From Aeromonas eucrenophila (GTDB lineage: Bacteria; Pseudomonadota; Gammaproteobacteria; Enterobacterales; Aeromonadaceae), in the NCBI RefSeq assembly GCF_000819865.1, contig NZ_CDDF01000011.1, positions 362,875 to 426,874 on the forward strand: 64,000 nucleotides of DNA, given 5' to 3'. The notes beneath the pieces are model-generated. The model was not told the DNA's origin and made no database searches. It worked only from the letters and a program-made list of their open reading frames with translations. The position numbers and the translations under genes were made by a program. Positions 14,654-61,876 of this stretch are shown here, piece after piece (position 1 is the first letter of the stretch; the number at the start of each line of letters is the position of its first letter).

Positions 14654-15154
14654 ATGGATAACAAACAGATAGAAGGCAGCATTCTGGTTCCGGCCCACAT
14701 CGACGATGTCTGGCGGGCCTGGACCACAGAGAGCGGGCTGCGCAGTTTCCTGGCACCGGAGTGCCTGATGGTGCCAGAGCCCAACGGCCCTTTCGAAATC
14801 TATTTCAGGCCCGATGCCCCGCTGGGGGAGCGTGGCAGTGAAGGCTGTAGAGTGATGGCGGTCATGCCCCATGACCTGCTCAGTTTCAGCTGGAATTTCC
14901 CTCCCCAGTTCCCCCATATCCGCCAGCAGAAGACCCAGGTCAGCCTGCGCTTCGTGCCGGAGGGTCAGGGTACCCGGCTCCATTTCTTGCAGACCGGCTG
15001 GGCTCAGGATCCGGACTGGGATCAGGGCTATGCCTACTTCCGGGAGGAGTGGCTGGAGCTGAGCCTGCCCAGGCTGCAATACCGTTTCACCCACGGCCCC
15101 ATCGACTGGAACAATCCGCCGGACAAGCAACAGCTGAAGTCCCTGGCCCAATAA
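14654..15154 (+). CDS. SRPBCC (AHSA1-like) domain protein
   Basis: A 166-residue protein of the START/Bet v1-like SRPBCC fold: N-terminal EGSILVPAHIDDVWRAWTTESGLRSFLAPE, central GPFEIYF and LLSFSWNFPPQFPHI, and a C-terminal helix EEWLELSLPRLQYRF. Such proteins bind hydrophobic ligands; the exact role is unknown. The tail NPPDKQQLK is echoed about 100 bp downstream as NPADKQKEPK (see findings). Confidence 0.8.
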   Translation: MDNKQIEGSILVPAHIDDVWRAWTTESGLRSFLAPECLMVPEPNGPFEIYFRPDAPLGERGSEGCRVMAVMPHDLLSFSWNFPPQFPHIRQQKTQVSLRFVPEGQGTRLHFLQTGWAQDPDWDQGYAYFREEWLELSLPRLQYRFTHGPIDWNNPPDKQQLKSLAQ

Positions 15155-15239
15155 GCCGGGCATCAGGCGCTGACGGACGGGCGCGGCCCCCTTCCCCAGC
15201 AAGGGGCGCCAACCCGGCCGACAAGCAGAAAGAGCCAAA

Positions 15240-15260
15240 AGCCCCCAATTTCAGGGGGCT
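15240..15260 (+). terminator. Hairpin downstream of the SRPBCC gene
   Basis: A 7-bp stem AGCCCCC/GGGGGCT with a 7-base loop, without a clear T-run. It lies in the 287-bp gap before the diguanylate cyclase locus. Apart from the tail echo at 15211, I see nothing else in the gap. Confidence 0.4.
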
Positions 15261-15441
15261 CATTCATCCATACAAAATTCATGGTTTATTAACTAAAACA
15301 ATGGGATAGATCTAAAAAAGCCATCAAGGCGGCTGATTTCATGCGATGCTCGCCACTGGCAGAAGATGTCTTTTCTGCACAGCAACGACATACACAATAA
15401 CAGCCGCGCCCCAGCGCCAATCCTGGGAACATGAGGTAGCC

Positions 15442-16479
15442 ATGTTGATCGAGAAAACACTGCTTGAGCAATTCAACATCAATGAGATCGAAATCCAACG
15501 CCGAATGGAGCTATTCAAGCTGACGCAAGCTGAGCTGGACTTGCTCGCGGCGCAGCAACCCATCATAGAGCAGCACCTCGACGGCCTGGTCGCCAAGTTC
15601 TACGACAAACAGACTCAGTTTGATTAGATTGCGCTGCTGATCGGTGATGCCGACACCCTGCAGCGCCTGCGCAATGCCCAGCGTCGCTACATTCAGGAGC
15701 TGTTTTCCGGCCACTACGACAACGCCTATGTCAACAGTCGGCTGCGCATCGGCCTGGTGCACAAGCGCATCGGCGTGGAGCCCAAGCTCTATCTCTCCGC
15801 CAGCTGCACCCTCAAGTATCTGGTGGAAGATGTGTTGATCGAACATATCGCCAATCCATCGGACGTGCCCCAGGTGCTGCGGGCCCTCGACAAGCTCATC
15901 AGCTTCGATACCGCACTGGTGTTCGATACCTATATCGGCACCCTGCTGAGCGCGGTGGAAAATGCCAAGAAGCGGATGGAGACCTATGCCCGCGAGCTGG
16001 AGGAGAAGTCCAAGATCCTGAGCGCCCATGCGGAGCGGGATCCCCTCACCGAGCTGTACAACAAGCGGGCAATGCAGCGCACCATCATGCGGGAGCTCAA
16101 TGCCGCCATCCGCCGCAAGAGCTACCTGTCGGTGATCTACATCGACGTCAACAAGTTCAAATTCATCAATGACACCTTCGGCCATGCGAAGGGCGACGAA
16201 GTCCTGCAGACCCTGGGTCAGGCGATCACCGAAAGCTGCCGCACGTCGGACTTCCCGTGCCGGATCGGGGGAGACGAGTTCTGCGTGATCCTGCCGGAGG
16301 CGAGCAGGGCCACCGCCTTGCACATCGGCGATCGCATCGAGGCCGCCTTCACCACGGCCTACCCCGAGTACTCTATCAGCATCGGCATCTGCGTGACGGG
16401 GAACGAGAGCTTTGTCAGCGCCAACGAGTTGATCGAGGGGGCGGACAAGGCGATGTACGAAGCCAAGCAGCAGTCCTGA
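15442..16479 (+). pseudogene. Globin-coupled diguanylate cyclase interrupted by an in-frame TAG
   Basis: A 346-codon frame encodes a globin-coupled sensor (codons 1-160, with the proximal-His motif LVHKRIGVEPKLYLSA) followed by a linker helix and a GGDEF domain (GGDEF intact, with the inhibitory-site RTSD five residues before it). Codon 62 (15625-15627) is TAG between ...KQTQFD and IALLIGD.... Everything on both sides stays in frame, so one base change from a Glu, Gln or Lys codon explains it. Without suppression the globin sensor is lost; the cyclase half could only be made from an internal start. It would otherwise make cyclic di-GMP in response to oxygen. Confidence 0.85.
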
Positions 16480-16504
16480 ATGCACCTAGCCTTCGCATAA
16501 AAGC

Positions 16505-16538
16505 ACAACGCCGTTCACCTGGGAGTGAACGGCGTTGT
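16505..16538. terminator. Bidirectional hairpin between the cyclase and the GNAT gene
   Basis: A 14-bp stem ACAACGCCGTTCAC/GTGAACGGCGTTGT with a 6-base loop lies between convergent genes. Confidence 0.7.
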
Positions 16539-16569
16539 CAGGTAGCAGAGGATTCCGAGGGAGTGAGCC

Positions 16570-17076
16570 TTACTCTTCTTCCATCTCGTCGAACAGGGGG
16601 TGATAGAGCACCTCGCCCTGCAGGCCACTGAGGCCATCCTGTTGCAGCTCCATCGCCATGAAGCAGTCGGCAGGCACCTCGTAGATGCAGTGCAGGCCAA
16701 AGTCGCTGGCCGGGCGGAAGCCGAACCGGGCGTAGTAGGCCGGATCGCCGAGCACCACCACCGCCTTCCAGTCCATCTCCAGCGCCGTATCCAGCCCCTC
16801 TCGCACCAGGTCCGAGCCGATGCCCTGCCCCTGCCAGTCGGGATGCACCGCCACCGGCGCCAGACCGAGCCAGGGACCGTCCTGCCCGTTAATGGTGATA
16901 GGGCTCAGCATCAGGTGCCCCATGAACTCGTACTCTTCCTCTTCGACCATGGTGACCACGGCGGCGCCACACTCGCGCAGGCGATTGACCAGCTCGGCCT
17001 CGTCGCTACGGCCAAAGGCGGCGCTCACCAGCTCATAGACTGGCAGCATGTCGCCGGGGCGCTCGGTTCTCAACAT
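16570..17076 (-). CDS. GNAT family N-acetyltransferase (YhbS-like)
   Basis: A 168-residue acetyltransferase close to the YhbS group: MLRTERPGDMLPVYELVSAAFGR at the start, GLAPVAVHPDWQGQGIGSDLVREGL as the acetyl-CoA loop, and VVVLGDPAYYARFGFRPASDFGL as the C-terminal motif. Substrate unknown. It is a single gene between terminators. Confidence 0.85.
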   Translation of the reverse strand: MLRTERPGDMLPVYELVSAAFGRSDEAELVNRLRECGAAVVTMVEEEEYEFMGHLMLSPITINGQDGPWLGLAPVAVHPDWQGQGIGSDLVREGLDTALEMDWKAVVVLGDPAYYARFGFRPASDFGLHCIYEVPADCFMAMELQQDGLSGLQGEVLYHPLFDEMEEE

Positions 17077-17214
17077 AGGGCATTACTCCTCGTACAGCAG
17101 GGCGGCCATTATTTCACAGAAGTTGGGCCCGACTTGAATTCCTTTATTCGAAAATGGGAGGGCGGACTCAGGAAAACGAATGGCAAGAACGGCAGATCCC
17201 ATCAAAACAGGCCG

Positions 17215-18465
17215 CTATCGCCGCTCGCCGAGCAGCCGCCGCAGGTAATCCAGCCCCGCGTCCCCGCGCTCCTTGAGCAAGACGCCGCCGCCGTGGGACT
17301 CTTGCCAGGGATCGCTGCGCGCCAGCCAGGCAAAGGGGTGGCGCCGGATCACCAGCTCGATCCCCGCTATCCTGACCCGCTCGCTCCCCAGATCGGCATT
17401 GTCCATAAACAGGGCCAACTCCAGTGCGCCGCCGTCTTCTCCCCGGGCCCAGGCACCGTGCAATATGACCACCGCCACCTGTGGGTCCGCGAGCAACGGC
17501 ACCAACCACGCCAGAACCCGCTCGGGCAGCGCGAGGTCGCGATCCAGCCGCCAGTGGCTCAACTCGACGGGATAGCGATCCGTCCCCATGCAGCGGCCGC
17601 CATAGTGCATGCCAAGCTTGGCCATCACCCGGCCGGAGGCGAGGTTGTCCGGCATATGGCGGGCGGTCAGGGCAGGCAGCTTCGCCACCTCGAATGCGAA
17701 TGACCTGACCAGGGTCGCCGCCCGGGTGGCGAGCCCCCGATTCTGCCAGGGTACCCCCACCCACCAGGCGAGTTCGCCGTTCCAGTGCAGCGAGATAACC
17801 CCGAGCAGGGGAGCGCCCCCGGCATCCTTCGGCAGGGTCAGCGCCCAGCTCCAGCCCAGCCCCAGCGCCGCCTTGCGCCCGCTCAGGGCGAGCCAGTCCC
17901 GGGCCGCTTCAGGTGGATAGGAGTGAGGAATGTTGAGGGTGTAGCGAGCCAGCGCGGCGTCTGCGCAGTAACGGGCTATGTCGGCCTCATCCTCCGGCCG
18001 CAAGGGCCGCAGCACCAAGGCTCCGGGGCTTTCAGGCTCGCGCAGTTCAGGGATAAGGAGGCGCCGGGCGAGCAGCCGTTGCAGCACCATAGTCAGGTCA
18101 TCGCCGGGGCCCAGGGTCAGATCCGCACCCACGGGGCCCAAGGTAAGCAGACCGCTCTCCTTGGCCAGGGTCAGCAAGGCGGAGGAGGCGCTGATCAGGA
18201 TCCGCTGGCTGGGATCCGCTCCCATGATGGGCCCCTCGTCCCCGTCCAGCCAGGCCGCGAGCAAGGCGCTGGCCGAGAGGGTGCCGTCCGGCGGGCAGGC
18301 CGCCCAAGGGGTCGCCTCCCCCTCGGGATAGTGCGCGGCCCGCTTGCTCAGCAGCAGTTGCCAGCGGTGCCCCTGCCCTCGCCATGCCTGCAATGCCCCC
18401 AACCAGTGGGGTTGCCAGAGCCCCCCCTCGATCAACAACTCCATCACTCCCCCTGTGAGCCGCAC
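17215..18465 (-). CDS. Three-part protein: N-terminal unknown domain, GNAT, degenerate nucleotidyltransferase-like domain
   Basis: A 416-residue protein. Residues about 1-145 (LIEGGLWQPHWLGALQAW...) are unrecognised. Residues 147-305 are a RimJ/RimL-type GNAT (LVLRPLRPEDEADIARYC, WWVGVPWQNRGLATRAATLV, RVMAKLGMHYGG). Residues 315-416 resemble the minimal nucleotidyltransferase fold (ILHGAWARGEDGGALELALFMD): the GS/GA...ARG turn is kept but the D-x-D metal pair is replaced by L-x-L, so catalysis is unlikely. A start at 18444 (MELLIEG) is also possible. A sensor or antitoxin-like fusion is conceivable; function unknown. Confidence 0.65.
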   Translation of the reverse strand: MRLTGGVMELLIEGGLWQPHWLGALQAWRGQGHRWQLLLSKRAAHYPEGEATPWAACPPDGTLSASALLAAWLDGDEGPIMGADPSQRILISASSALLTLAKESGLLTLGPVGADLTLGPGDDLTMVLQRLLARRLLIPELREPESPGALVLRPLRPEDEADIARYCADAALARYTLNIPHSYPPEAARDWLALSGRKAALGLGWSWALTLPKDAGGAPLLGVISLHWNGELAWWVGVPWQNRGLATRAATLVRSFAFEVAKLPALTARHMPDNLASGRVMAKLGMHYGGRCMGTDRYPVELSHWRLDRDLALPERVLAWLVPLLADPQVAVVILHGAWARGEDGGALELALFMDNADLGSERVRIAGIELVIRRHPFAWLARSDPWQESHGGGVLLKERGDAGLDYLRRLLGERR

Positions 18466-18745
18466 AGCGACGATGGTCGACTGTCATCACGCGAATCAGA
18501 CCCGGATCCCCGCAGAGCGCCATTTTCCACCGTCGGGACATCCAGCAAACAGGCAGCATAGCCTGCTGCTAACTCGCTGTTAAACCCTATGTTCGACGCG
18601 GTTAAACGGCATACCCCATGAAAAAATGCCATATGTCCACCTTGATGAACATCACATTAATGGGGTCGCCCCCTTCCTATCATGCCTCCATCTTGTGCCA
18701 CCCGCCCAGGCGCATGAATGACAACGCATAACAAGAGAACACACT
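18466..18745. promoter_or_regulatory. Divergent intergenic region with an FNR/CRP-like site
   Basis: This 280-bp region separates the GNAT fusion (-) from the transporter operon (+). TTGATGAACATCAC at 18642-18655 is one base from the FNR consensus half-sites TTGAT-N4-ATCAA and is also compatible with a weak CRP site. It would suit oxygen or carbon control of the downstream operon. No gene is seen. Confidence 0.35.
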
Positions 18746-19564
18746 ATGCAGCAATCCAACCCCCTCAAAACGGTGTTAGTCAGTACCCTGGCGACCGCCC
18801 TGCTGATCTTCGTGGCCCAATACCTGATTGGGAAGCAGGAGATCAAGATAGGCATCGCCATCATCCCCATCCTGCCCATGCTGTTTGCCGTCATCATCGG
18901 CATGATCGTCTCCGCCAAGCCGGTCAAGGACCGTATCCCCGGCTGGAAGCAGCTCTTCACCGAGAAAGAAGAAGGCTTCTGCGGCAAGATGGTGGGCTTC
19001 AGCCTGCTCATCCTCGGCACCCAGTATGCCGGCATGATCATCCCCAACCTCAAGCTGATCCTGAGCGTCGGGGTGCCCCTCTTCCTGCAGGAGATAGGCA
19101 ACTTGCTGCCCATCTTTATCGCCATCCCGCTGGCGGTGAAGTTCGGCTTCGGTCGCCGCGCCATCGGGGCCTGCTCCTCCATCAGCCGTGAGCCCTCGGT
19201 CGCCGTCATTCAGGGCAAGTTCGGCACCGGCTCCCAGGAGTACATAGGCGTGCTCGCCATCTACCTCTGTGGCTCCGTCATCGGCACCCTCTGGTTCAGC
19301 GTGCTCGGCAGCATAGCGCCCCTGACCGGGTTGCACCCGCTGGCCCTGGCCGCCGGCTCCGGCGTGGGCTCCGGCTCCATGCTGAGTGCCGCCTCCGGCG
19401 CCCTCATCAACGGTTTGGACGAGGCACTGGCCCAGCAGGTGCTGAGTATCGCCGCCGCCTCCAACCTGCTCTCCTCGGCCCTCGGTGCCCTCTCCCTCAC
19501 CTATCTGGGACTGCCGCTCGCCGAAAAAATCTTCGCCATCTCTTCCAAAGGAGAGCAAGCATGA
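18746..19564 (+). CDS. Multispanning membrane protein, DUF3100-like transporter component
   Basis: A 272-residue integral membrane protein with about eight hydrophobic segments (TALLIFVAQYLIG, GIAIIPILPMLFAVIIGMIV, MVGFSLLILGTQYAGMII, LPIFIAIPLAVKFGFG, and a Gly/Ser-rich re-entrant-like LALAAGSGVGSGSMLSAASGAL). It overlaps a second small membrane gene by 4 bp and is followed by an M20 amidohydrolase, so the two membrane proteins probably form one transporter that imports the peptide or amide substrate. The family match is by overall pattern. Confidence 0.6.
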   Translation: MQQSNPLKTVLVSTLATALLIFVAQYLIGKQEIKIGIAIIPILPMLFAVIIGMIVSAKPVKDRIPGWKQLFTEKEEGFCGKMVGFSLLILGTQYAGMIIPNLKLILSVGVPLFLQEIGNLLPIFIAIPLAVKFGFGRRAIGACSSISREPSVAVIQGKFGTGSQEYIGVLAIYLCGSVIGTLWFSVLGSIAPLTGLHPLALAAGSGVGSGSMLSAASGALINGLDEALAQQVLSIAAASNLLSSALGALSLTYLGLPLAEKIFAISSKGEQA

Positions 19565-20010
19565 AGAGCATCGTGATGGATATGCGGTTCGTCTTCTTGG
19601 CGATCCTGCTGGCCATGTTTACCCAGACCCTGACCACAGGCCTGCCGCTGTGGCAGATGGGGGACAGCTTCGTCGCCATGGCGCTGGTGGTGTTCGCCTC
19701 CCTGGTGGCCAAGCGCTACCTGCCCTCCTCCCTGCCGGCCTTTGCCTATGCCACCATCATCGGCATTCTCATCTGCCTGCCGGAGACACCGGTGCGCGGC
19801 CTCTTCATCGACGCGGTGGCGAAGATCTCCTTCCTCTCCTGCTGCGTGCCGCTGCTGGCCTTCGCCGGCCTCTCCGTCGGCGGTCAGCTTGAGGAGCTCA
19901 AGAAGATGTCATGGAAGGTGATCCTCATCTTCATGATCGTCTCCACCTGCTGCTTCTTCGGCGCCTCGCTGGTTGCCCAACTCGGCTTCTCCATTCAAGG
20001 GATCATCTGA
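19561..20010 (+). CDS. Small membrane protein, second transporter component
   Basis: A 149-residue membrane protein with four to five helices (FVFLAILLAMFTQTLTTG, FVAMALVVFASLVAK, AFAYATIIGILICLP, ISFLSCCVPLLAFAGLSVGG, VILIFMIVSTCCFFGASLVAQLG). It overlaps the preceding gene (ATGA) and the following hydrolase (TGATG), so all three are tightly coupled. It is likely the partner half of the preceding permease. Confidence 0.65.
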   Translation: MKSIVMDMRFVFLAILLAMFTQTLTTGLPLWQMGDSFVAMALVVFASLVAKRYLPSSLPAFAYATIIGILICLPETPVRGLFIDAVAKISFLSCCVPLLAFAGLSVGGQLEELKKMSWKVILIFMIVSTCCFFGASLVAQLGFSIQGII

Positions 20011-21191
20011 TGCACCACTACCACATAGAACCTGACCTGCTTGCCCTGCGTGACTTCAGCCGCGAGGTACGCCACCACCTGCACAGCATCCCGGAATACT
20101 CCGGTGCCGAGTTCAAGACCTCGGCCTACTGCCGCGCCCTGATGACAGAGTTCGGCTACCGGATCACCGACTACCCGGGCTTCACCGGTTTTCACGGCGA
20201 CCTGAACGTCGACCCCAGCCTGCCCACAATCGCGTTTCGCGCCGACATGGACGGCCTCGAGATGCACGACATGAGCGAGGTGGCGTTCAAGTCCACCCAC
20301 GAGGGCATGGCCCACAACTGCGGCCACGACTCCCACATGGCGATAGCCCTGACCACAGCCCGGTTCCTGGCCAACCACCAGGAGAGGCTGCAATACAACG
20401 TGCGCATTATCTTCCAGATGGCGGAAGAGGACATGCGGGTACCGGGCGCTGGCAAGATGGTGGAGCTCGGCTGCATGCAGGGGGTGGACGAGGTCTACGC
20501 CCTGCACAACGACGGCGCCATGGAGACAGGCACCATCAAGTTCAACCAGGGGGTCATGTCCTCCTGGGGCTCGGCCTGGACCCTGGAAGTGCACGGCATC
20601 TCCGCCCACGGCTCGACCCCCCACAAGGGGCTGGACGCCATCCGCGAGGCGGTGCGCATCATAGAGGACATGGATTACATCGTCGCCAAGCGCACCAGCC
20701 CGTTCAGCCCGGCGGTGTTTGGCTGCGGTATGATCAACGGCGGCACCATCCCCAATGCGGTGGCCGATCACGTGCAGGCCCGTGGCACCATCCGGGCCAT
20801 GGACGCCGAGACGGATCAGATCCTCAAAAACAGCTTCAAGGACATGGTCGCCCAGAGCGAGCTACGCGGCTTCAAGACCAGCATGAGCTACGCCGGCTAC
20901 CCGGCGGTGGAGAACCACGGCACCGCCTGCGCGCGGCTGCAACAAGCCGCCGCCAGCGTGCTGCCCGCCGAGGGCATCAATGCTCAGGGCCAGCCCATGA
21001 CCGGCAGCGAGGATTTCAGCTACATGATCAACGCCACCCCGGACCGCATGGGGGCCATGTTCTTCCTCGGCAGCGGCTGCCAGGCCAAGGGGATCTGCAA
21101 CTACCTGCATGCCAACCCCTACTACCTGGACGACGACTGCCTGCTCATCGGGGCCCAGATCTTCGTCAATCTGGCGACCCAAGCGGCTTGA
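20010..21191 (+). CDS. M20 family metallo-amidohydrolase
   Basis: A 393-residue M20D-type peptidase/amidohydrolase. Metal-binding and catalytic motifs are in order: HSIPEYSGAEF near residue 25, FRADMDGLEM about 75, NCGHDSHMA about 103-111, MAEEDMRVPGAG about 140, the lid domain with HGISAHGSTPHKG about 200, and GSEDFSYM about 332. Relatives hydrolyse N-acyl amino acids or p-aminobenzoyl-glutamate. The start overlaps the stop of the transporter gene. A decayed copy of its C-terminal coding sequence ends at 21326 (see findings). Confidence 0.88.
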   Translation: MHHYHIEPDLLALRDFSREVRHHLHSIPEYSGAEFKTSAYCRALMTEFGYRITDYPGFTGFHGDLNVDPSLPTIAFRADMDGLEMHDMSEVAFKSTHEGMAHNCGHDSHMAIALTTARFLANHQERLQYNVRIIFQMAEEDMRVPGAGKMVELGCMQGVDEVYALHNDGAMETGTIKFNQGVMSSWGSAWTLEVHGISAHGSTPHKGLDAIREAVRIIEDMDYIVAKRTSPFSPAVFGCGMINGGTIPNAVADHVQARGTIRAMDAETDQILKNSFKDMVAQSELRGFKTSMSYAGYPAVENHGTACARLQQAAASVLPAEGINAQGQPMTGSEDFSYMINATPDRMGAMFFLGSGCQAKGICNYLHANPYYLDDDCLLIGAQIFVNLATQAA

Positions 21192-21341
21192 GGGCAACCC
21201 GGAACAGGCCACGCCACCAGATCAGGGAGTTGGGCAAGGAATCGCGTCCATCTCGCCTGCGACCTGGACGACCGCCAGTTAATCAGTGAACAGATCGTCG
21301 AGAATACGATCCCCCAGGCAGATTAATCACTGCCATAGAGT

Positions 21342-21370
21342 AAAAAGAGAGGCCATTGGCCTCTCTTTTT
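21342..21370. terminator. Bidirectional terminator between the hydrolase and the LysR gene
   Basis: A 13-bp stem AAAAAGAGAGGCC/GGCCTCTCTTTTT with ATT loop lies between convergent genes. Confidence 0.9.
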
Positions 21371-31470: not shown

Positions 31471-33425
31471 GCCTTGCTCTCCTCTTCTTCACGACGGCCG
31501 AAGCGGTAGCGCTTGTCCAGCATCGCCAGCACGCCGCCGATGGCCATGAAGACGCCGCCGAACCAGATCCAGCGCACGAACGGCTTGTAGTAAATCCGCA
31601 CAGCCCAAGCACCGTTGTCGAGCTGCTCGCCCAGCGCCGCATAGAGATCCCGGGTGATACCGGCATCAATGGCCGCTTCCGTCATCGGCATGCGGCTCAC
31701 CTTGTACATCCGCTTCTCCGGCTTGAGCAGGGCGACCTGTTTACCGTTTTTGTGCACTTCCAGCACACCCTTGAAGCCATCGTAGTTGGGGCCGTTCTTC
31801 TCCTTGATGCCGGTGAAGACGAACTCGTAGTCGGCGAATTGCACCCTGTCGCCTGCCTGCATGCGCAGGTCCTTCTCGATGCTGTAATTCTGGGTGCAGG
31901 CGATGCCGATGATGCTGACCGCCAGCCCCACGTGACCCAGGATCATGGCCCAGTGGCTGTTGCCGAGCTTGCGCACACCGGTCGCGAAGCTGTGCTTGTG
32001 GGTGGCGCGCACCCAGGTTTCCTGCACGCTGGTGATGATGATCCAGACGCCGAGGCCGATGCCGAGCGCGGCCCAGGGTTTGAACTCCTCGGCCAGCAGC
32101 AACGGCAGCAGGAAGGCGGCGGCTAGGCTCAGCACCAGCGCCAATACCACCTTGCCCTTGAGCTCGCCAACGTCCTGACGGCGCCAGCGGAACAGGGGGC
32201 CCAGCCCCATCAGCAAGGCGAACGGAATGATCAGCCAGCTGTAGATGTGGTTGAAGAAGGGAGTGCCGATGGAGATGCTACCGAGCCCCAGCTCCTTGTG
32301 CACCAGGGGCAACAGGGTACCGAGCAGCACGGTCAGCAGACCCGCCACCAGCAGGATGTTGTTGCCAAGCAGCAGGGTCTCCCGACTCCACAGCTCATGT
32401 TTGCCGTGGCTCTTGACCTGGGAGCCCTTGAAGGCGAACAGCAGCAAAGAGGAGCCGATCACCGCCAGCAGGAAGCCGAGGATGAAGAGGCCGCGGGTCG
32501 GGTCTGAGGCGAAGGCATGGACCGACACCAGCACGCCGGAGCGCACCAGGAAGGTGCCGAGCAGGCTCAGGGAGAAGGCCGAAAGCGCCAGCAGCACTGT
32601 CCAGGCCTTGAAGCTGGCGCGCTTCTCGCTCACCGACAGCGAATGCAGCAGGGCCGTGCCCGCCAGCCAGGGCATGAAGGAGGCGTTTTCCACCGGATCC
32701 CAGAACCACCAGCCGCCCCAGCCGAGCTCGTAATAGGCCCACCAGGAGCCGAGTACGATGCCGAGGGTCAGGAAGACCCAGGCGGCCATGGTCCAGGGAC
32801 GGGACCAGCGTGCCCAGGTGGCGTCGAGCCGGCCGGTCATCAGGGAGGCGATGGCGAAGGCGAAGGCCACCGAGAAGCCCACGTAGCCCATATAGAGCAT
32901 GGGTGGATGGAAGATGAGGCCGGGATCCTGCAACAGCGGATTGAGATCGCGCCCGTCCACCGGGAAGTACGGCAGGGTGCGGGTGAAGGGATCCGAGGTG
33001 AACAGCACGAAGGCGGTGAAGCCGACCGAGATGAGCCCCAGCACCCCGAGCACCCGCGCCACCGCATCGAGCGGCAGGCTGCGGCTCAGCAGCGCCACGG
33101 CGGCGGTCCAGCCGCCGAGGGTCAGCACCCACAGCAGCAGGGAGCCCTCGTGGGCGCCCCACACCGCCGAGATGCGGTAGGCGAGCGGCAGCAGGCTGTT
33201 GGAGTTGGTGGCCACATACTGTACGGTGAAATCGTTGTCCACAAAGGCCCAGGTCAGGCAGAGGAACGACAGCAGCAACAACAGGAACTGGGCATAGGCC
33301 AGCGGTCTGGCCGCCGACATCATGCCCAGACGCCCCCACTTGGCACCGAGCAGCGGGTAACTGCCCAGCAGCAAAGCGGTGGCGAAGGCCAGGATCAGTG
33401 CAAATTGCCCTAATTCAGGGATCAT
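31467..33425 (-). CDS. ccmF: Haem lyase subunit CcmF
   Basis: A 652-residue integral membrane protein with about 15 helices. The tryptophan-rich WWD motif is YELGWGGWWFWDPVENASFMPWLAGTALLHS (about residues 228-258), the haem-binding region. CcmF joins haem to apocytochrome c with CcmH and CcmI. Its ATG overlaps the TGA of a 29-codon ORF that bridges from ccmE. Confidence 0.96.
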   Translation of the reverse strand: MIPELGQFALILAFATALLLGSYPLLGAKWGRLGMMSAARPLAYAQFLLLLLSFLCLTWAFVDNDFTVQYVATNSNSLLPLAYRISAVWGAHEGSLLLWVLTLGGWTAAVALLSRSLPLDAVARVLGVLGLISVGFTAFVLFTSDPFTRTLPYFPVDGRDLNPLLQDPGLIFHPPMLYMGYVGFSVAFAFAIASLMTGRLDATWARWSRPWTMAAWVFLTLGIVLGSWWAYYELGWGGWWFWDPVENASFMPWLAGTALLHSLSVSEKRASFKAWTVLLALSAFSLSLLGTFLVRSGVLVSVHAFASDPTRGLFILGFLLAVIGSSLLLFAFKGSQVKSHGKHELWSRETLLLGNNILLVAGLLTVLLGTLLPLVHKELGLGSISIGTPFFNHIYSWLIIPFALLMGLGPLFRWRRQDVGELKGKVVLALVLSLAAAFLLPLLLAEEFKPWAALGIGLGVWIIITSVQETWVRATHKHSFATGVRKLGNSHWAMILGHVGLAVSIIGIACTQNYSIEKDLRMQAGDRVQFADYEFVFTGIKEKNGPNYDGFKGVLEVHKNGKQVALLKPEKRMYKVSRMPMTEAAIDAGITRDLYAALGEQLDNGAWAVRIYYKPFVRWIWFGGVFMAIGGVLAMLDKRYRFGRREEEESKA

Positions 33426-33511
33426 GGTTGAGCTCCTTTCAATCGAGCCGCGACCTGAACCTGTTCACGGGCGAGAAACGGTGAAAAAGACGTCAGGAAG
33501 GAGGCGCTCAT
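33422..33511 (-). CDS. 29-residue bridging ORF between ccmE and ccmF
   Basis: The ATG (33511) overlaps the ccmE stop and the TGA overlaps the ccmF start (ATGA at both ends). Its last nine residues (AARLKGAQP) closely resemble the last nine of CcmE (EAQLKGAKQ), as if an older ccmE 3' end had been kept next to ccmF. The SD of ccmF (AAAGGAG) lies inside this copy. Translation is not demonstrated. Confidence 0.35.
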
Positions 33512-40201: not shown

Positions 40202-40249
40202 CTATTTTCCTTCAGTCAGATAACCCCGTAACCGCCCTTGCTCTGCCAA
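40202..40249 (-). CDS. 15-residue ORF carrying a second motC-like C-terminus
   Basis: A TTG (40249) with a good SD (GAGGGAG) opens a 15-codon frame ending GRLRGYLTEGK-stop, four bases before the motD ATG. It mirrors the real MotC end RRLRAYLKGE-stop at 40283. The DNA also matches (CGG-T-CGGG--TATCTGA...TAGCC). Probably a relic of an earlier motC 3' end; translation unproven. Confidence 0.3.
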   Translation of the reverse strand: MAEQGRLRGYLTEGK

Positions 40250-50847: not shown

Positions 50848-50974
50848 AACAATTCAACACATTGATATAATTGAAGTTTATTTTTCAGCATGTCAGAAGT
50901 CCGTCGCCCTCGCCCCACACATAAACCGGGGCCATGGCGAGCGGGGCCAGGGTTTCCCCTTTATTGGCGGTATG

Positions 50975-51274
50975 GAGGCTCAGTGGGCAGGTCTTTCGCA
51001 AACGGTGTCAGGCGCTGGCTACGGCAGAACTTCTTGAGCGGAGGCGCAGCGGCCAAGGCTTACACCACCGAGGTAAGCAGCCCTCTGGCTGGCGATGTCA
51101 TACAAACGCGGTTATGTGCGGAACTCGGGGGGAATGGGCAAGTCTTTGGCGATCGGGGTCGGCCGGCGGCCACGGCCACGGCCACGGCGAAACTTCTTGA
51201 GCTGGTACACATAGGCCAGCGCTTACACCACCACGGCAGACAGCCCTGCGGCAGATGGCGTTATGGCAGCGCCG
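50975..51274 (-). repeat. Two extra tandem copies of the flhB 3' end
   Basis: Copy A (about 51113-51260) matches the real flhB end (from 51276) with 163-bp offset. Over about 100 bp it is almost identical apart from a 6-bp CCACGG insertion, and still encodes LAYVYQLKKF...PTPIAKDLPIPPEFRT-stop. Copy B (about 50975-51110) is more diverged but retains LKKF...TPFAKDLPTEPPYRQ-stop, and shares with copy A a downstream block (GCTTACACCACC...TATGTGCGG). The array fills the flhB-flhA gap up to the promoter region. Confidence 0.85.
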
Positions 51275-53680: not shown

Positions 53681-53681
53681 C

Positions 53682-53825
53682 TTATCGGCTCCTTTCCATT
53701 GACCGGCTTAGCCTGCCTCCAGCCCGACGCTGTTGGCCAAAGAGCCCAGGACGAGGCTCCAGCCGTCCACCATGACAACCAGCATCGGCTTGAACGGCAG
53801 TGAGGGCGGCACCGGAGGAAAACAT
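53682..53825 (-). CDS. 47-residue bridging ORF between fliP and fliQ
   Basis: The ATG overlaps the fliP stop (TGATG) and the TAA lies one base before the fliQ ATG. It reads through the duplicated fliP 3' end in another frame, so the peptide itself is unlikely to be functional; the frame could carry ribosomes from fliP to fliQ. Translation unproven. Confidence 0.3.
   Translation of the reverse strand: MFSSGAALTAVQADAGCHGGRLEPRPGLFGQQRRAGGRLSRSMERSR
53708..53806 (-). repeat. Second copy of the fliP 3' end
   Basis: About 99 bp match the authentic fliP end (53825-53923) at a 117-bp offset, roughly 80-85% identical by eye. In the matching frame it encodes LPFKPMLVVMVDGWSLVLGSL then ANSVGLEAG-stop, against Fli[22 protein letters not shown] then ANSFGLGAG-stop. 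The reading frame and stop are kept. Confidence 0.85.
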
Positions 53826-54947: not shown

Positions 54948-55339
54948 TTGAGTTTCTTGATCCGCTCTATCTGGCTGATGACGTCGGTGAGGCGTATGCC
55001 GAACTTGTCGTTCACCACCACCACCTCGCCGTGGGCGATCAGGGTGCCGTTCACCAGCACATCCAGCGGCTCACCGGCGACCCGATCCAGCTCCACCACC
55101 GAGCCCTGGTTGAGCTGCAGCAGGTTGCGGATGCTGATCTGGCTGCGGCCCACTTCCATGGCGATGGTCACCGGAATGTCCAGAATGGTGTCCAGCTTGC
55201 GCCGCTCTTCGGCACTGATGGGGGCATCGTCCTTGAGTTCTTCCAGCGGGGCGGGCTTGGCCTCGGCCGTCACCTGTTCTTCCAGCGCAGCCGCCCAGGC
55301 ATCTGCCATCAAATCCTGCTCGTCATCGGTTCCGCTCAT
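54944..55339 (-). CDS. fliN: Motor switch protein FliN
   Basis: A 131-residue switch protein with a C-terminal SpoA domain (LDTILDIPVTIAMEVGRSQISIRNLLQLNQGSVVELDRVAGEPLDVLVNGTLIAHGEVVVVNDKFGIRLTDVIS). Forms the lower C-ring and binds FliH and CheY. Confidence 0.96.
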   Translation of the reverse strand: MSGTDDEQDLMADAWAAALEEQVTAEAKPAPLEELKDDAPISAEERRKLDTILDIPVTIAMEVGRSQISIRNLLQLNQGSVVELDRVAGEPLDVLVNGTLIAHGEVVVVNDKFGIRLTDVISQIERIKKLK

Positions 55340-55388
55340 CTTGCTTCCTTATGCTGCTTCGTGACCCGCGTCTGATACGACGGGTCTG

Positions 55389-56459
55389 TTAAGAGTGTTT
55401 GTCTTCGATGCTGCGCTCGAGCTCTTCCAGCTCGGCCTCGCCATCGATGCGCACGCCCCCACGGGTCACCAGATGCATCTCTGTCTTGACCCCGTCAGGG
55501 CGTTTGAGTTTGTCGACTATCTTGAGCGCCACGTTTTCCTTGGTGCGCCCCATCTTGGCGTGGAAGGTCGGCAAGTCCTCCACGTAGACCAGCAGGTTCT
55601 CCGGCATCTCCACCGGGATGATGTCGCCGGGTTTGAGCTCCATCAGATCCCGCAGGGTCAGCTCTGTCTCCAGCAGCTTGGCCTTGAGCTCCACCTTGAC
55701 GTCCATGATCTCGTCGCGCAGCGCCTTGCTCCAGCGCACGTCGGTGTCGCCCTTGTCGCTCTGCACACCGGCATCGAGCAACTCTCGGATGGGCTCCAGC
55801 ATGGAGTAGGGCATGGCCACGTGGAAGTCGCCGCCACCGCCATCGAGCTCGATGTGGAAGGAACTCACCACTATCACCTCGGTGGGGCTGACGATGTTCG
55901 CCATGGCCGGGTTGACCTCGGAGTCGAGATACTCAAAGCCCACGTCCATCACCGGCGCCCAGGCGTCCTTGTAGTCCTCGAACACCAGCTTGAGCAGCAT
56001 CTGGATGATGCGCCGCTCGGTGGGGGTGAACTCGCGGCCCTCGATCTTGGCGTGGTAGCGCCCGTCGCCGCCGAAGAAGTTCTCCACCAGGATGAACACC
56101 AGGCGGGCCTCCATGGTGATCAGCGCCGTGCCCTTGAGGGGACGGAAGCGCACCATGTTCAGGCTGGTCGGCACGAACAGGGTGTGTACGTACTCACCGA
56201 ATTTCAGCATCTGCACGCCGTTGATAGAGACCTCGGCGGTGCGTCGCATCATGTTGAACAGGCTGATGCGCATGTGGCGGGCGAACCGCTCGTTCACCAG
56301 CTCCAGGGTCGGCATGCGGCCACGGACGATACGGTCCTGGGAAGAGAAATCGAACTGGGCGATGCCGGGATCCCCGGCCGCCCCTAGTTCTTCCTCTTCG
56401 ACATCATCGACACCGTGCAAGAGGGCATCAATTTCGTCCTGACTTAACAGATCGCTCAC
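55389..56459 (-). CDS. fliM: Motor switch protein FliM
   Basis: A 356-residue protein: N-terminal CheY-binding peptide LLSQDEIDALLHGV, middle domain with GGDGRYHAKIEGREFTPTE, and C-terminal SpoA domain (ELTLRDLMELKPGDIIPVEMPENLLVYVEDLPTFHAKMG). Its stop is 49 bp from fliN. Confidence 0.96.
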   Translation of the reverse strand: MSDLLSQDEIDALLHGVDDVEEEELGAAGDPGIAQFDFSSQDRIVRGRMPTLELVNERFARHMRISLFNMMRRTAEVSINGVQMLKFGEYVHTLFVPTSLNMVRFRPLKGTALITMEARLVFILVENFFGGDGRYHAKIEGREFTPTERRIIQMLLKLVFEDYKDAWAPVMDVGFEYLDSEVNPAMANIVSPTEVIVVSSFHIELDGGGGDFHVAMPYSMLEPIRELLDAGVQSDKGDTDVRWSKALRDEIMDVKVELKAKLLETELTLRDLMELKPGDIIPVEMPENLLVYVEDLPTFHAKMGRTKENVALKIVDKLKRPDGVKTEMHLVTRGGVRIDGEAELEELERSIEDKHS

Positions 56460-56469
56460 GCTTCACCTT

Positions 56470-56970
56470 TCATTGCATGACAAAGCCGGTAAACAGCACT
56501 TGTTCTATTACGGGGGAAGAGACCAGGTCATTGAGCACCCGGCGACACTCTTCCAGTGAATCCTGGCGCAGCTTCTCCTTGCCCTCGAAAGTCATCAGCT
56601 GCTCGGCGGTGGCCGCGCTGAAGACCCGCAGCAGGGTGCCTTCGATCAGGGGGGTATTCTGCTTGGCCAGCGCCTCATCGGCGGCGCCGCGCACCATCAG
56701 CTGGATCTTGATCTGCACCAGCCGATCCCGCTGCCCACCCGCCACATTGAACACGAAGGGGCGCAACATGGCGACATAGAGCGATGGCTCTGGCGTGCTG
56801 GCTTGTGGCTTGGCCTCCTCGGCCGCGGGTTTGTCCTCGCCCGCCAGCATGAACCAGGCACCGGCTCCGCCGCCCCCCAGCACGATGACGGCGAGGGCGA
56901 CTATCATGATCAGCTTCTTTTTCTTGGCTGCCGCCGGGTCCTTCAGCGTCAGTTCGTTATCGTCTGCCAT
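56470..56970 (-). CDS. fliL: Flagellar basal-body protein FliL
   Basis: A 166-residue protein: one membrane helix (LIMIVALAVIVLGGGGAGAWFML) and a periplasmic stomatin-like domain (YVAMLRPFVFNVAGGQRDRLVQIKIQLMVRG). Rings the stator and aids torque. Confidence 0.94.
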   Translation of the reverse strand: MADDNELTLKDPAAAKKKKLIMIVALAVIVLGGGGAGAWFMLAGEDKPAAEEAKPQASTPEPSLYVAMLRPFVFNVAGGQRDRLVQIKIQLMVRGAADEALAKQNTPLIEGTLLRVFSAATAEQLMTFEGKEKLRQDSLEECRRVLNDLVSSPVIEQVLFTGFVMQ

Positions 56971-57035
56971 CCCTTGTCCACCCTGGTCCTAAACTGGTTC
57001 GATATCATAAACTTACTCAGGCAGGCATCAAGCAT
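56949..57035 (-). CDS. 28-residue bridging ORF between fliK and fliL
   Basis: The ATG (57035) lies within the last fliK codons (TATGCTTGA) and the frame ends 20 bases inside fliL. No clear 3' copy of fliK is seen in it. It fits the general pattern of stop-to-start bridging ORFs in this operon but could be chance. Confidence 0.2.
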   Translation of the reverse strand: MLDACLSKFMISNQFRTRVDKGWQTITN

Positions 57036-59010
57036 AGAAATCAATTCCGCTGTCGTTTGTCGATTCCACCAGCAGACTCATGGCGCGGGCCCCATGCTCT
57101 CCCTTCCCCTGGCCGCTGCCGCCGAAAGATCCGCCCTCCTGCCGGCCCTGCTGACCCTGACCGTTGAAGGTCGACTGGCCTTGAGATTGCTGCTGTTGTC
57201 CCTGCTGCGCCTGCTGCTGTGACTGTTGTTGCACTTGGGTCTGGCCGAGCTGGATCCCCTGCCCCGCCAGCATGTCCCGCAGACGCGGCATGGCCTGCTC
57301 CAGCATCTCCCGGGTCTGGCCATGCTGCACCACGAAGTGGACGCTGGCCTGGTTGTCAGCCCCCATCTGTATCTGGATCTTCATCTTGCCAAGCCCGAGG
57401 GGATCGAGCTGGAGCTCCGCCTGCTGCAACTTGTCCGTCAGCATCAGGTTCACCTTCTGGTGCAACTGCTCAGGTGCTTCCGGTGTGGCCAACTTGAGGT
57501 GCGGCAGGGTCTGAGCCTCCCGCCTGGCCGCTACTTCGGCCGCCGGCCTGCTCTCGCCGGGCTGGGCCTGTGCATGCTGCGGGGCCGGTGTCGATTCGCT
57601 CTGCTCGACCGACTTGGTTTCCAGCGCAGGCGTACCGGGCTCATCCAGCTTTGACTTCATGTCGGTCTGCTTGAGCTCGACGGCCACCCTGGCCGCGACT
57701 GCGGGCTCGGCCTCCATCTGCTGGATACCGGCCGACAGGGCCGTCAGCGAGGCTTGTGGCCCCTGAGATTCGTGGCGCGCCAGGATCTGCGGCGCCGTCG
57801 TCAGCACAGGCTCGGGATCCACGCCGGCGGGCGCCCCGCTCCCGGCGGCGACCTGGGTGGCAGCCTGGGTTTCGGACTTGGCTGCCGGCGTCTGTCCCGG
57901 TTTGGCCTCCGGCTCGGCGGCCGCTCTGGTTTGGCTGCTCTCATCGCCGGACTTGCCGCCATCCGGGGTGGCATTGGCGCTGGCGTCACTCTGGGTATCC
58001 ACCCTGACCAGCCCCTCGCCAAAGGCCTTGGCCGCACTCGCCTGGGCGCCTTGAGTTGACTGAGCACCGTGCGCGCCTGGCGTTGCCTGGGCGCCATGGG
58101 CAGCGTGCTCAGTTGAGATGGATTGCGCCGACTTGCCCGCCGTGGGTGACTCGCTCGCCTCTGCCACCGGCGCGGCGTCCGTTTGAGCGGGGCTCACCTT
58201 GGCCAGCAAGGCGGCCCGCTCCTGACCGGACAGCGGCTGTGGGGCGGGTTTCGGCGCGACAGCCTCGGGATGCTCGACCTGGGTGGCGGCCTGCGCTTCC
58301 AACTGAGCCACCTGAGCTTCCGACTGAGCTGCCGGAGCTGCGAGCTGGCCATCGACAGGCAGAGCCTGAGCCCCCTTGCCGAGTCCGGTAGCCAGCTCAC
58401 TTCCCTTGTCGCTCTTGCCTGCCTCGCCTCGCGGAGTTGCTGCGCCTTGAGCAAGGGTCTCGCCCGTGCCGCGCCCTTCGGCCACCGGTCGCAGGAGCGT
58501 CTGCGGTGTGGCGGCGTCGGTCGTGGCCGCGGGCTTGCCCGCATCAGCCGGTGACACCGGCTGCGACTCGGGCGGCAAGTCGTTGCCGTCGATGACGGGC
58601 GCCGTCGGCATCGCCGCCTGAGCCGTCTGGGCCACCAGGGGCGCAGGAGGGACCACCAGGCTCACATCCTGTCTGAGGGAGGCCTGCAACTGCTGCAGAA
58701 AATCATCGGGGGGAAGCTCGGTCTCATCGCTCTTGTCAGACGTTGGCGGCGTCGAGGCGGGAGTCCCGTCGGTCGCCAAAGATTTGGCATCCGGCGTCAT
58801 GGCTGCGGGAGGCTGCTCACCCGTTTGGGCGGCTGGCGCCCCCTTGCCGACGAGCTGGGCCCTGGCCATGGCATCGGCAAACGCGGCCTTGCCACCGTCC
58901 TGCAACGGCAGTTCGGTCCCCTCGTTGCCCATGGGGAGCATGGCCGATGCTGTGCCGTTGTCGGCAGGGGTGGCCTGGATGGCGGCCTTGAGCAACTGGG
59001 TCTGTATCAT
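57028..59010 (-). CDS. fliK: Flagellar hook-length control protein FliK
   Basis: A 660-residue Ala/Gln/Pro-rich protein. The long disordered N-terminal ruler (residues 1-500) is followed by the Flg_hook domain (LHQKVNLMLTDKLQQAELQLDPLGLGKMKIQIQMGADNQASVHFVVQHGQTREMLEQAMPRLRDMLAGQGI) and a Gln-rich tail. It stops hook growth and triggers the FlhB specificity switch. Longer than the enteric form, as usual for polar systems. Confidence 0.93.
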   Translation of the reverse strand: MIQTQLLKAAIQATPADNGTASAMLPMGNEGTELPLQDGGKAAFADAMARAQLVGKGAPAAQTGEQPPAAMTPDAKSLATDGTPASTPPTSDKSDETELPPDDFLQQLQASLRQDVSLVVPPAPLVAQTAQAAMPTAPVIDGNDLPPESQPVSPADAGKPAATTDAATPQTLLRPVAEGRGTGETLAQGAATPRGEAGKSDKGSELATGLGKGAQALPVDGQLAAPAAQSEAQVAQLEAQAATQVEHPEAVAPKPAPQPLSGQERAALLAKVSPAQTDAAPVAEASESPTAGKSAQSISTEHAAHGAQATPGAHGAQSTQGAQASAAKAFGEGLVRVDTQSDASANATPDGGKSGDESSQTRAAAEPEAKPGQTPAAKSETQAATQVAAGSGAPAGVDPEPVLTTAPQILARHESQGPQASLTALSAGIQQMEAEPAVAARVAVELKQTDMKSKLDEPGTPALETKSVEQSESTPAPQHAQAQPGESRPAAEVAARREAQTLPHLKLATPEAPEQLHQKVNLMLTDKLQQAELQLDPLGLGKMKIQIQMGADNQASVHFVVQHGQTREMLEQAMPRLRDMLAGQGIQLGQTQVQQQSQQQAQQGQQQQSQGQSTFNGQGQQGRQEGGSFGGSGQGKGEHGARAMSLLVESTNDSGIDFYA

Positions 59011-59100
59011 GCGGGGATCCCTGACGACAATCCGGTGGCCGGCGACATCGACGTCGCCCCGTCACCGCGTATTTATCACGATGGAGAAAACGGAAGCAAA

Positions 59101-59541
59101 TTACAGGCCAGAATGGTGATAGCGCCGCATGATGGCGTAATCGTCCAGCATCTTCTGCTCCTGACGCTGGGCCTTCTGGCGTACCCGCCCCGCCTGTTTC
59201 TCGAGCAGGAGTTCGACCGCCTTGCGTCGCTGCTGGGCCTCCAGCCATTGGGTGCGGCACAATCCCAGCGCCTCGCGCACCTGCAGCACCCCTTCGTACT
59301 GCTGGGTCGCCGCATTTTCAAGCTTGCTGATGAAGGCGTGATACTGGCTGTTCTGCTGGGGGGTGATCCCTTGCAGACCCCGATCTGTCCACTGCTGGTG
59401 GTAGATCTGGCGGTACTGGTTCAGCGCCTCTTGCTGATCCATGAACAGCTTCAAGTCCTGCTGGGCCTTGGCCAGCGCCATGGCCGCCTGCTGCTCCGCC
59501 TCGACCAACCTGGTGGCCAACAATTCCAAGCCTTTACTCAT
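59101..59541 (-). CDS. fliJ: Flagellar export chaperone FliJ
   Basis: A 146-residue coiled-coil protein (LATRLVEAEQQAAMALAKAQQDLKLFMDQQEALNQYRQIYHQQW...) filling the centre of the FliI ATPase ring. It lies just after fliI. Confidence 0.93.
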   Translation of the reverse strand: MSKGLELLATRLVEAEQQAAMALAKAQQDLKLFMDQQEALNQYRQIYHQQWTDRGLQGITPQQNSQYHAFISKLENAATQQYEGVLQVREALGLCRTQWLEAQQRRKAVELLLEKQAGRVRQKAQRQEQKMLDDYAIMRRYHHSGL

Positions 59542-59567
59542 TCCAATACTCCACCCGGTTCATCTCG

Positions 59568-60899
59568 TCAGCGCATCAGTGGCATGGCCACCATATGCAG
59601 GGATTGCAGGCCTTCGTCGTAGGGAATCACCTCGCGCATTTTCTGCTGCAAGAACTGATCCAGATAGGGTTTCTGAATGATGGCCCTGTCGATGCGGGGA
59701 TCCGAGCCCTGGCTGTAGGCGCCTATGGTGATGAGATCCCGGTTCTGCTGATAGAGGGAGTAGAACTGCTTGAAGGTGCGCGCCAGCTCCATGTGCTCCG
59801 GCGAGGTGACCATGGGCATGACCCGGCTGATGGACTTCTCGATGTCGATGGCCGGATAGTGGCCCGCATCCGCCAGCTCCCGCGCCAGCACTATGTGGCC
59901 GTCGAGGATGGCCCGCGCCGCGTCGGCGATGGGATCCTGCAGGTCGTCCCCCTCCGTCAGCACGGTGAAGAAGGCGGTGATGGAACCCTGGCCGTCGCTG
60001 CCGTTGCCGGCCCGCTCCACCAGCGCCGGTAATTTGGCAAACACCGAGGGTGGATAGCCCTTGGTGGCCGGCGGCTCGCCCACCGCCAGGGCGATCTCGC
60101 GCTGGGCCTGGGCGTAACGGGTGAGGGAGTCCATCAGCAGCAACACGTTGAGGCCCTGCTCGCGGAAGTATTCGGCGATGGCGAGCGCCGTCTCGCAGCC
60201 CTTGAGCCGCATCAGCGGCGAGGCATCGGCGGGGGCAGCCACCACCACGGCGCGCTCGCGCCCCTCGGCCCCGAGGATCTCTTCGATAAACTCCTTTACC
60301 TCCCGGCCCCGCTCGCCGATGAGGCCAACCACCACCACGTCCGCCGCGGCGCCGCGGGTCATCATGCCGAGCAGCACCGACTTGCCGACGCCGGAGCCGG
60401 CGAACAGCCCCATGCGCTGGCCTTGCCCCACGGTGAGCACGGCGTTGATGGCACGCACCCCCACGTCCATCGGCTGATGGATGGCCCGGCGGGCGAGCGG
60501 GTTGATGCGTTGCTGGGCGAACTGCACCGTCTGGGAGGAGATGATGGGACCGAGCCCGTCAAGGGGCTGGCCTATGCCGTCGATGACCCGGCCGAGCAGG
60601 TTCATGCCCACCGGAATGCCGTGATCCTCGGTGATGGGCACCACCCGGGCCCCCGGGATGACCCCCTTGAGCTGTTCGCTCGGCATCAGGAACAGCCGAT
60701 CGCCGGAGAAGCCGACCACCTCGGCCTCCAGGGCGCCATCCTGGGTATCGATGCGACAGAGGGCGCCGATGGCGGCGCGGCAGCCGATGGCCTCCAGGGT
60801 CAGGCCCACCACCCGGGTCAGCTTGCCCGCCACCGGTGGAATGGGGGCGACATCGCGCACCCGGTAGCCTTGCAGCCGATTGAGCAAGGACGCTGTCAT
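59568..60899 (-). CDS. fliI: Flagellar export ATPase FliI
   Basis: A 443-residue F1-beta-like ATPase: Walker [19 protein letters not shown] (about residues 165-182), [16 protein letters not shown], Walker [23 protein letters not shown], and [18 protein letters not shown]. It unloads substrates at the export gate. The start overlaps a mini-ORF from fliH. Confidence 0.97.
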
Positions 60900-61009
60900 C
60901 GCGCCTCCAGAGAGAAAGGGGAAAGATGCCGGGTCACAGGGTGACTCGGCATTGTCACACAGGGAAATACAGCACAGCAGCGCGATGCCTCGTAGAGAGC
61001 ACGGAACAT
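60896..61009 (-). CDS. 37-residue bridging ORF between fliH and fliI
   Basis: The ATG (61009) is four bases after the fliH stop and the TGA overlaps the fliI start (CGATGA). The gap contains a decayed copy of the fliH 3' end (60941-60989), out of frame with this ORF. SD GGAGG of fliI lies in its last codons. Translation unproven. Confidence 0.3.
60941..60989 (-). repeat. Decayed copy of the fliH 3' end
   Basis: ACTCGGCATTGTC plus about 30 further matching bases repeat the authentic end at 61016-61062 (offset 73). The copied frame still reads LL...SLCDNAES against LLRNFLRDNAE-stop. Roughly two-thirds identical by eye. Confidence 0.6.
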
Positions 61010-61013
61010 GCCG

Positions 61014-61811
61014 TTACTCGGCATTGTCGCGCAGGAAGTTGCGCAGCAGCTGATCGATGCGCCCCGAGAGGGTCAGATCTATGCTGGAGAGCTCGGTGGC
61101 CAGTTGCAGATCGCCGGGAGAGAGGGTGGGTTCACTGCGCAGGCGCCAATGACGCTTGGCACACTCCTCGGCGCCGAAGGCCTGCTCGACCCGGGCCACA
61201 TCATCCGGGTGCAACATCAGGGTGACCCCCTGCTCGGCGGCGGGCAGCAGGGAGAGCCCCTGCTTGAGCGCCTCGAGCAGCAGCCTGGGGGAGGTCTCGG
61301 CCTCGTGACGAATGAGGGCGCGGGCGAGCTGCTGCACCAGGGCGATGAGCTGTTGCTCCACCGCGCTGTCTTGCTCGCTCAGCGGGTTGGCGAGACGATC
61401 CGCCAGTCCCTGCCAGTGGGCAATCTGCTGCTCCACCTGCTCCTGGCCCATGGCGAACCCCTCTTCCCTGCCCTGCTCCAGACCGGCCTGATGACCCTGC
61501 TGCAAGCCTTCCAGCTTGCCCTCTTCCAAGCCCTTGGCAAAACCTGCTTCTCGCCCCTCACGCATGCCCTCTTCCCAGGCGGCCTGACGAATGGCTTCCA
61601 GCTCTTCTGCTGTGATGCTGGGAGCGGGCTCCTCCTCGGGCTCTTCGATGGGAGCCTCGGCTTCCTGTTCCTGCCGGTACCAGTCCGGGCCAAGCCCCAG
61701 GGCATTGACCTGGATCTCGGACTCGACTTCCATCTCGGGCCAGCCCCAGGCCTGCACCTGACTCTCATCCTCTTCGGGCCTGACATAGCCGCGCAGCTTG
61801 TTGTTATTCAT
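61014..61811 (-). CDS. fliH: Flagellar stator of the export ATPase, FliH
   Basis: A 265-residue FliH: Glu-rich N-terminal half with GxxxG-like repeats (EEGMREGREAGFAKGLEEGKLEGLQQGHQAGLEQGREEGFAMG) and a C-terminal V/H-ATPase E-like domain (LMLHPDDVARVEQAFGAEECAKRHWRLRSEPTLSPGDLQLATELSSID). Controls FliI. Confidence 0.95.
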   Translation of the reverse strand: MNNNKLRGYVRPEEDESQVQAWGWPEMEVESEIQVNALGLGPDWYRQEQEAEAPIEEPEEEPAPSITAEELEAIRQAAWEEGMREGREAGFAKGLEEGKLEGLQQGHQAGLEQGREEGFAMGQEQVEQQIAHWQGLADRLANPLSEQDSAVEQQLIALVQQLARALIRHEAETSPRLLLEALKQGLSLLPAAEQGVTLMLHPDDVARVEQAFGAEECAKRHWRLRSEPTLSPGDLQLATELSSIDLTLSGRIDQLLRNFLRDNAE

Positions 61812-61876
61812 GCTTTAGAGACGCTCCTCGCGACTACCAGACGACAGGGCAACATAATCCCACGTTTAGGCTGCAT
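61808..61876 (-). CDS. 22-residue bridging ORF between fliG and fliH
   Basis: The ATG (61876) is three bases after the fliG stop and the TGA overlaps the fliH start (GCATGA). Within the gap, CGCGAGGAGCGTCTCTAAAGCATG (61809-61832, minus strand) resembles the true fliG end GGCGAGGAATTCCTCTAAGCCATG, a possible relic tail. Translation unproven. Confidence 0.3.
   Translation of the reverse strand: MQPKRGIMLPCRLVVARSVSKA

Follow-up and report, generated by a model that had tools for sequence, protein, structure and literature searches.

Decayed copies of gene ends recur behind Aeromonas genes as probable relics of short tandem duplications spanning gene junctions

The gaps that follow many Aeromonas genes contain decayed copies of the end of the preceding gene, termed here echoes. 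We analysed a 64-kb stretch of Aeromonas DNA (G000:C11:362875-426874, hereafter the window), for which a reading of the sequence (the original prediction) had claimed such copies behind several unrelated genes, among them the flagellar genes flhB and fliP. The analysis confirms that echoes occur genome-wide and exceed chance. The copies lie in tandem, relatives carry the same junctions in single copy, the pattern recurs at many genes and arrays of echoes are chimeric. Very probably, the echoes derive from short tandem duplications that crossed gene junctions, recurrently across Aeromonas, with arrays growing afterwards by exchange between copies.

Genes were called with our own caller on positions 1-440000 of contig C11, window included (414 genes). 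The last 150 nt of each gene were aligned with the first 400 nt of the following gap, gaps shorter than 30 nt being left out. As control, the ends of the other 277 genes were aligned with the same gap, so that composition was kept; the minimum possible p per gap is 0.0036. Values of p ≤ 0.01 were obtained in 21/278 gaps, 2.8 being expected, and values of p ≤ 0.05 in 39/278 (13.9 expected); 19 of the 278 gaps scored above all mismatched controls. The five top scores were 177, 173, 151, 134 and 127, with control maxima of 26–29, and cases rivalling flhB exist outside the window. Decayed end copies do therefore stand behind several unrelated genes, as predicted, those of SRPBCC and fliQ excepted. 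Nor does the signal fall to control level when flhB and fliP are set aside: 19/276 gaps remain at p ≤ 0.01. Within the window, p ≤ 0.05 was reached in 9/44 gaps, and in 7/42 without these two genes (2.1 expected). When gene starts were compared with the preceding gap, a weaker 5′ signal was obtained (10/278 gaps at p ≤ 0.01 and 19/278 at p ≤ 0.05).

The recurrence of the process over many unrelated genes, also predicted, is borne out both by the 440-kb test and by seven Aeromonas samples (1.64 Mb). In the latter, 3′ echoes were found in 35/1061 gaps (about 3%), compared with 0/5278 controls; they occurred in 25/619 co-directional and 10/442 convergent gaps. The corresponding figures for 5′ echoes were 9/619 and 1/460, with no control pair at threshold. 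The 3′ side is hence the commoner one (p = 0.008 and 0.005), a preference possibly due to counter-selection of duplicated promoters and starts. Three samples from outside Aeromonas gave 1/321 (3′) and 1/343 (5′), both cases in G039, which belongs to a sister genus. The first 35 kb of its loci L251-L252 hold several repeats with lags of 365–450 nt, perhaps of a different type.

The excess in Aeromonas over the other genera sampled, a small set of gammaproteobacteria only, was seen in three further comparisons. At matched flagellar loci, a score of at least 40 was reached in 10/150 Aeromonas gaps vs 1/686 elsewhere, that is, in Shewanella, Colwellia-like bacteria, Vibrionaceae and others (Fisher p = 2.5e-7). 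In Aeromonas loci (306 kb), a scan for near-tandem repeats detected 17 at junctions; in about 1.3 Mb from elsewhere it detected one, in Shewanella (148 kb), and none in Colwellia-like bacteria (531 kb), Vibrionaceae (521 kb) or others (97 kb). Ferrimonas kyonanensis provides a rare case outside Aeromonas, an intergenic tandem array directly behind flhB (L063 11176-11714). The density of junction units per 100 kb was 3.9 in the contig of the window, 7.5 in G010, 2.0, 1.5, 1.5 and 0.5 in four more Aeromonas samples and 0 in G015; two other genera of the family gave 0.5 and 1.0, and Escherichia coli 0 in 200 kb. In the genus with a density of 1.0, lags are near 370 nt, and another kind of repeat may be involved.

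These comparisons bear on the simplest alternative, namely that tandem duplications arise everywhere in all bacteria, that only those crossing junctions survive and that Aeromonas is ordinary. Survival would account for the junction-crossing, and by reading, intragenic repeats with lags of 30–200 nt belong to ordinary repeat or low-complexity proteins, which is consistent with such a background; the same reading led us to discard a general rise of in-frame intragenic duplications. Nevertheless, the flagellar gap counts and the low densities in E. coli and in the two family genera, set against a range of 0 to 7.5 in Aeromonas, make an ordinary background improbable.

We next describe the duplicated units themselves. 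Among the matches listed, fixed-lag alignment shows direct and abutting copies with one lag per locus. Forty-one junction units from six Aeromonas samples measured 23–178 nt (median 101, quartiles 76 and 121), junction matches with a lag above 190 being omitted from the measurement (one in the window's contig, one in G010). Multiples of three are not in excess among the unit lengths (9, 14 and 18 by remainder). In some units (yebC, G036:15991) the spacer is itself doubled, which is what a simple tandem duplication gives. At ccmE-ccmF, at fliG-fliH and at pairs read as napB-napC and tamA-tamB, the unit also takes in the next gene's start. The unduplicated junction is present in relatives at motC, ccmE, flhB, fliP, fliQ-fliR and fliR-flhB, and this single-copy state is probably the ancestral one. 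The location of the units is largely explained by the fact that a junction-crossing unit leaves both genes whole.

Differences between gene end and echo in 22 pairs are distributed over the three codon positions as 55/533, 51/537 and 97/538, a skew that fits one constrained and one free copy. For an analysis of divergence by age, 28 of the 41 pairs were kept (at least 30 coding columns); in the oldest class, third positions are scarcely preferred, with 51 of 140 differences. A divergence gradient along the echo is striking in single cases and was discarded, since the pooled value is flat at 0.10–0.12 until about 105 nt from the stop codon and higher thereafter.

Arrays with at least two echoes provide evidence on how copies are added. 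In 26 of these, all sharing 36 columns or more, we marked the sites at which the middle copy matches only one of its neighbours. When pooled, middle copies are chimeric, their left part resembling the older echo and their right part the gene; none of 5000 permutations reached this fit. Clear chimeric arrays are those behind yebC in G021 and G007, the M20 peptidase gene in G010, a malG-like gene in G020 and flhB in the window. Several arrays were uninformative, and that behind the M20 gene in G036 was slightly reversed. A chimeric middle copy is expected if a gene and its echo undergo unequal exchange or slippage, and we infer that copies were added in this way and not by directed conversion.

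In the mechanism that we favour, a tandem duplication, mostly of 60–170 nt (median 101), would cross the boundary of two genes. Both genes would stay whole: the upstream gene would end in copy 1, and copy 2 would retain the ancestral gene end together with the ribosome site of the next gene and sometimes its start. The gene end in copy 2 would then be free to decay, the ribosome site excepted. As long as the copies still paired, unequal exchange or replication slippage could place a fresh gene end before the old echo, and arrays of two or three echoes with a chimeric middle copy would be the outcome. Rates would vary by Aeromonas species, and operons with abutting or overlapping genes would be loosened. 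That the first duplication arises by slippage at short homologies is a guess.

Several observations weigh against this mechanism. No junction unit was detected in 200 kb of the Aeromonas sample G015. Because the 26 arrays include several that are mutually orthologous, the events counted in the permutation test are not independent. Short homology at the junction was seen by eye in two cases, fliP (about 7 nt) and G035:29721 (2 nt), the majority of junctions being decayed. Among 33 units that overlap a gene end, 23 end no more than 25 nt past the stop codon. In the youngest pairs (identity of at least 0.93, n = 8), 25 of 38 differences lie at third positions, whereas half would be expected for copies that began identical (p = 0.036). 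Finally, when the nearest gene end was determined for 43 echoes from five loci (score of at least 44), it was that of another species for 19 of them, the own gene end for 22, with two ties. On this mixed result, a simple concerted evolution of each gene with its own echo inside a species was not adopted as an account.

The last two observations suggest that species exchanged gene ends when the duplication arose or afterwards, and thereby point to import: DNA of another Aeromonas would recombine homologously within the gene and illegitimately behind it, so that a foreign end is gained and the resident end becomes the echo. Gene ends also often resemble those of distant genomes. On the other hand, chimeric middle copies require exchange between tandem copies, the own gene end is nearest for those 22 echoes, and the doubled spacer in units such as that of yebC is at odds with import. 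In place of duplication, import is possible though doubtful. It is a live rival or a second process, more likely the latter, and may contribute on top of the duplication.

The preference of unit ends for the neighbourhood of the stop codon deserves separate consideration. Out of the same 33 units, 25 end within a third of their own length past the stop codon (binomial p = 7.5e-7 against uniform placement), a measure biased by the faster decay of non-coding DNA, by leftward over-extension of the alignments and by selection against a copied start of the next gene. Survival does not clearly account for this preference. A duplication process of Aeromonas could be anchored at the ends of translated regions, its units of about 100 nt finishing shortly after the stop codon; it would be linked to translation termination or to the transcription that follows, have species-specific rates and repeatedly seed small arrays. 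We consider such a process unlikely; were it real, a second copy of gene ends would be kept in the genome and operons would be loosened. The data do not establish a mechanism aimed at gene ends, as the original prediction had envisaged: much of the location follows from the survival of both genes being restricted to units that cross a junction.

The fairly narrow unit length and the frequent ending just behind the stop codon would also suit Ku-mediated end joining, or a mobile or retro-copying element with gene ends as its cargo. Each of these is highly improbable. Echoes are gene-specific: none of 2649 mismatched gene-gap pairs scores 36 or more, on which ground a shared mobile unit was rejected. 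Ku-dependent end joining was rejected as well, Ku giving no match in 61/61 genomes of the family. As to reverse transcription, RVT_1, the one reverse transcriptase family searched, gave no match in G000 (the genome of the window), G017, G023, G035 and G036, all of which have units or echoes, while two matches were found in G015, which lacks junction units in 200 kb. RVT_1 presence does not track unit density in the genomes compared, and reverse transcription was rejected.

Tandem duplication with subsequent copy exchange is a known kind of process. Bacterial minisatellites, or variable number tandem repeat loci, consist of head-to-tail copies the number of which shifts by slippage or unequal exchange. 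The Aeromonas arrays are likewise head-to-tail, with copy number probably changing by the same means; unlike minisatellites, every array originates from another gene's end, comprises few copies and has its first echo renewed by the functional gene. Replication slippage yields short tandem duplications in E. coli reporter genes as rare laboratory events. The abutting direct copies of about 100 nt fit such events, whereas in Aeromonas about 3% of the tested gaps are marked. Homology-facilitated illegitimate recombination in transformable bacteria would result in the order new end, spacer, old end, which is also that of the echoes. Under that process, copy 1 should be foreign from the outset; the Aeromonas arrays, in contrast, also show exchange between copies. 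Among the literature matches listed, from a search that did not extend to bioRxiv and most subscription papers, there was no account of the echo density in Aeromonas or of the repeated use of gene ends.

The echoes offer a concrete route by which overlapping or abutting operon genes can separate with neither being broken, the steps being visible between species of one genus. As density differs among related bacteria, from 0 to 7.5 units per 100 kb within Aeromonas, its cause is open to genetic mapping. In the annotation of Aeromonas gaps, pseudo-ends and shifted start calls are to be expected.

We then considered the individual junctions of the window. Pfam confirms CcmE, MotA-like MotC, FliH, FlhB, FliP and the M20 peptidase in it, as well as the SRPBCC protein (AHSA1), FliG, FliR and a MotB-like protein after MotC. 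Relatives were compared in a set of 15 named Aeromonas loci and in a set of genomes; the two may share assemblies, and their counts are not additive. Within the named loci, fliG-fliH is absent from three and fliH-fliI from two, and the fliP gap of A. bestiarum contains a run of N. The echoes of flhB, fliP and fliH are strong, each with p = 0.0036.

Behind flhB, the first echo (copy 2; 51112..51247, reverse strand) ends in a stop codon; 130 nt of the gene end are aligned, with a score of 177 and a control maximum of 26. By reading, a second, decayed echo (copy 3; 50961..51084, reverse strand) holds the older end, and copy 2 resembles copy 3 on its left and the gene on its right. The flhB gap is compact (103–104 nt) in 8/15 named Aeromonas, and in A. 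molluscorum the final flhB echo runs into the junction found in the species with compact gaps. The FlhB proteins of the window and of A. aquatica share 99% identity. In the latter species (L001, about 9500-10000), the fliR-flhB gap is 501 nt long and contains the flhB start in repeated copies, which correspond on the 5′ side to the echoes. The fliP echo (53708..53824, reverse strand; score 127) has a lag of 117 nt and adjoins the ribosome site of fliQ; the fliP gap is compact (9–28 nt) in 9/15 named Aeromonas. The fliH echo, ahead of fliI (60944..60988, reverse strand), has a score of 35, and A. rivipollensis and A. aquatica carry several clear tandem copies at fliH-fliI.

Four further echoes are weak when taken alone and are backed by relatives. 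That of fliG, ahead of fliH (61815..61838, reverse strand), has p = 0.018; by reading, the fliG-fliH gap of A. molluscorum consists of a copy of the fliH start and a copy of the fliG end. The motC echo (40202..40241, reverse strand; p = 0.018) carries a TAG 2 nt ahead of the ATG of the next gene. In 25/30 genomes motC is separated from that start by 2 nt, and the gap is expanded in five, including the genome of the window; four of these five expanded gaps contain a readable echo with its stop at that 2-nt junction. By alignment score alone, one of 30 genomes reaches 36 at motC. The ccmE echo (33424..33455, reverse strand; p = 0.065 alone) includes the ribosome site and the start of ccmF. As no ccmE end was obtained for two of 30 loci, 28 were readable: in three, ccmE and ccmF overlap by ATGA, and the remaining 25 have an expanded gap that closes with a ribosome site and a start resembling those of the compact form. 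Since no genome reaches a score of 36 (0/30), the ccmE case is based on the gap comparison and on reading. The M20 echo (21256..21326, forward strand; p = 0.007) is decayed. At this gene a score of at least 36 was obtained in 10/20 genomes, the window's own copy lying below 36; in G017 a fresh copy is followed by the same decayed copy as in the window. Downstream of the M20 gene, G022 (L372) and G023 (L371), about 2.6% apart, differ in that one has two fresh tandem echoes and the other none.

It had been proposed that a new end was inserted upstream while the ancestral end stayed beside the ribosome site of the next gene. The relatives at motC, ccmE and flhB uphold this topology; as for the inserted new end, a tandem duplication fits better. 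Two of the predicted echoes found no support. The SRPBCC echo (15211..15228, forward strand) has p = 0.17, and none of 30 genomes scores 36 or more. At fliQ (p = 0.59), the gap of 130 nt in the window has no readable echo; the ATGA overlap of fliQ and fliR is kept in 5/15 named Aeromonas.

Two other features were observed. In G002, a second ccmE match with 89% identity (G002:C167:28123-28611) suggests a second ccm locus. In the window, positions 2007-13858 comprise a prophage-like block with RecE/RecT-like, MT-A70-like and integrase-like genes, recognized by reading the translations, and with a G+C content below that of the rest.

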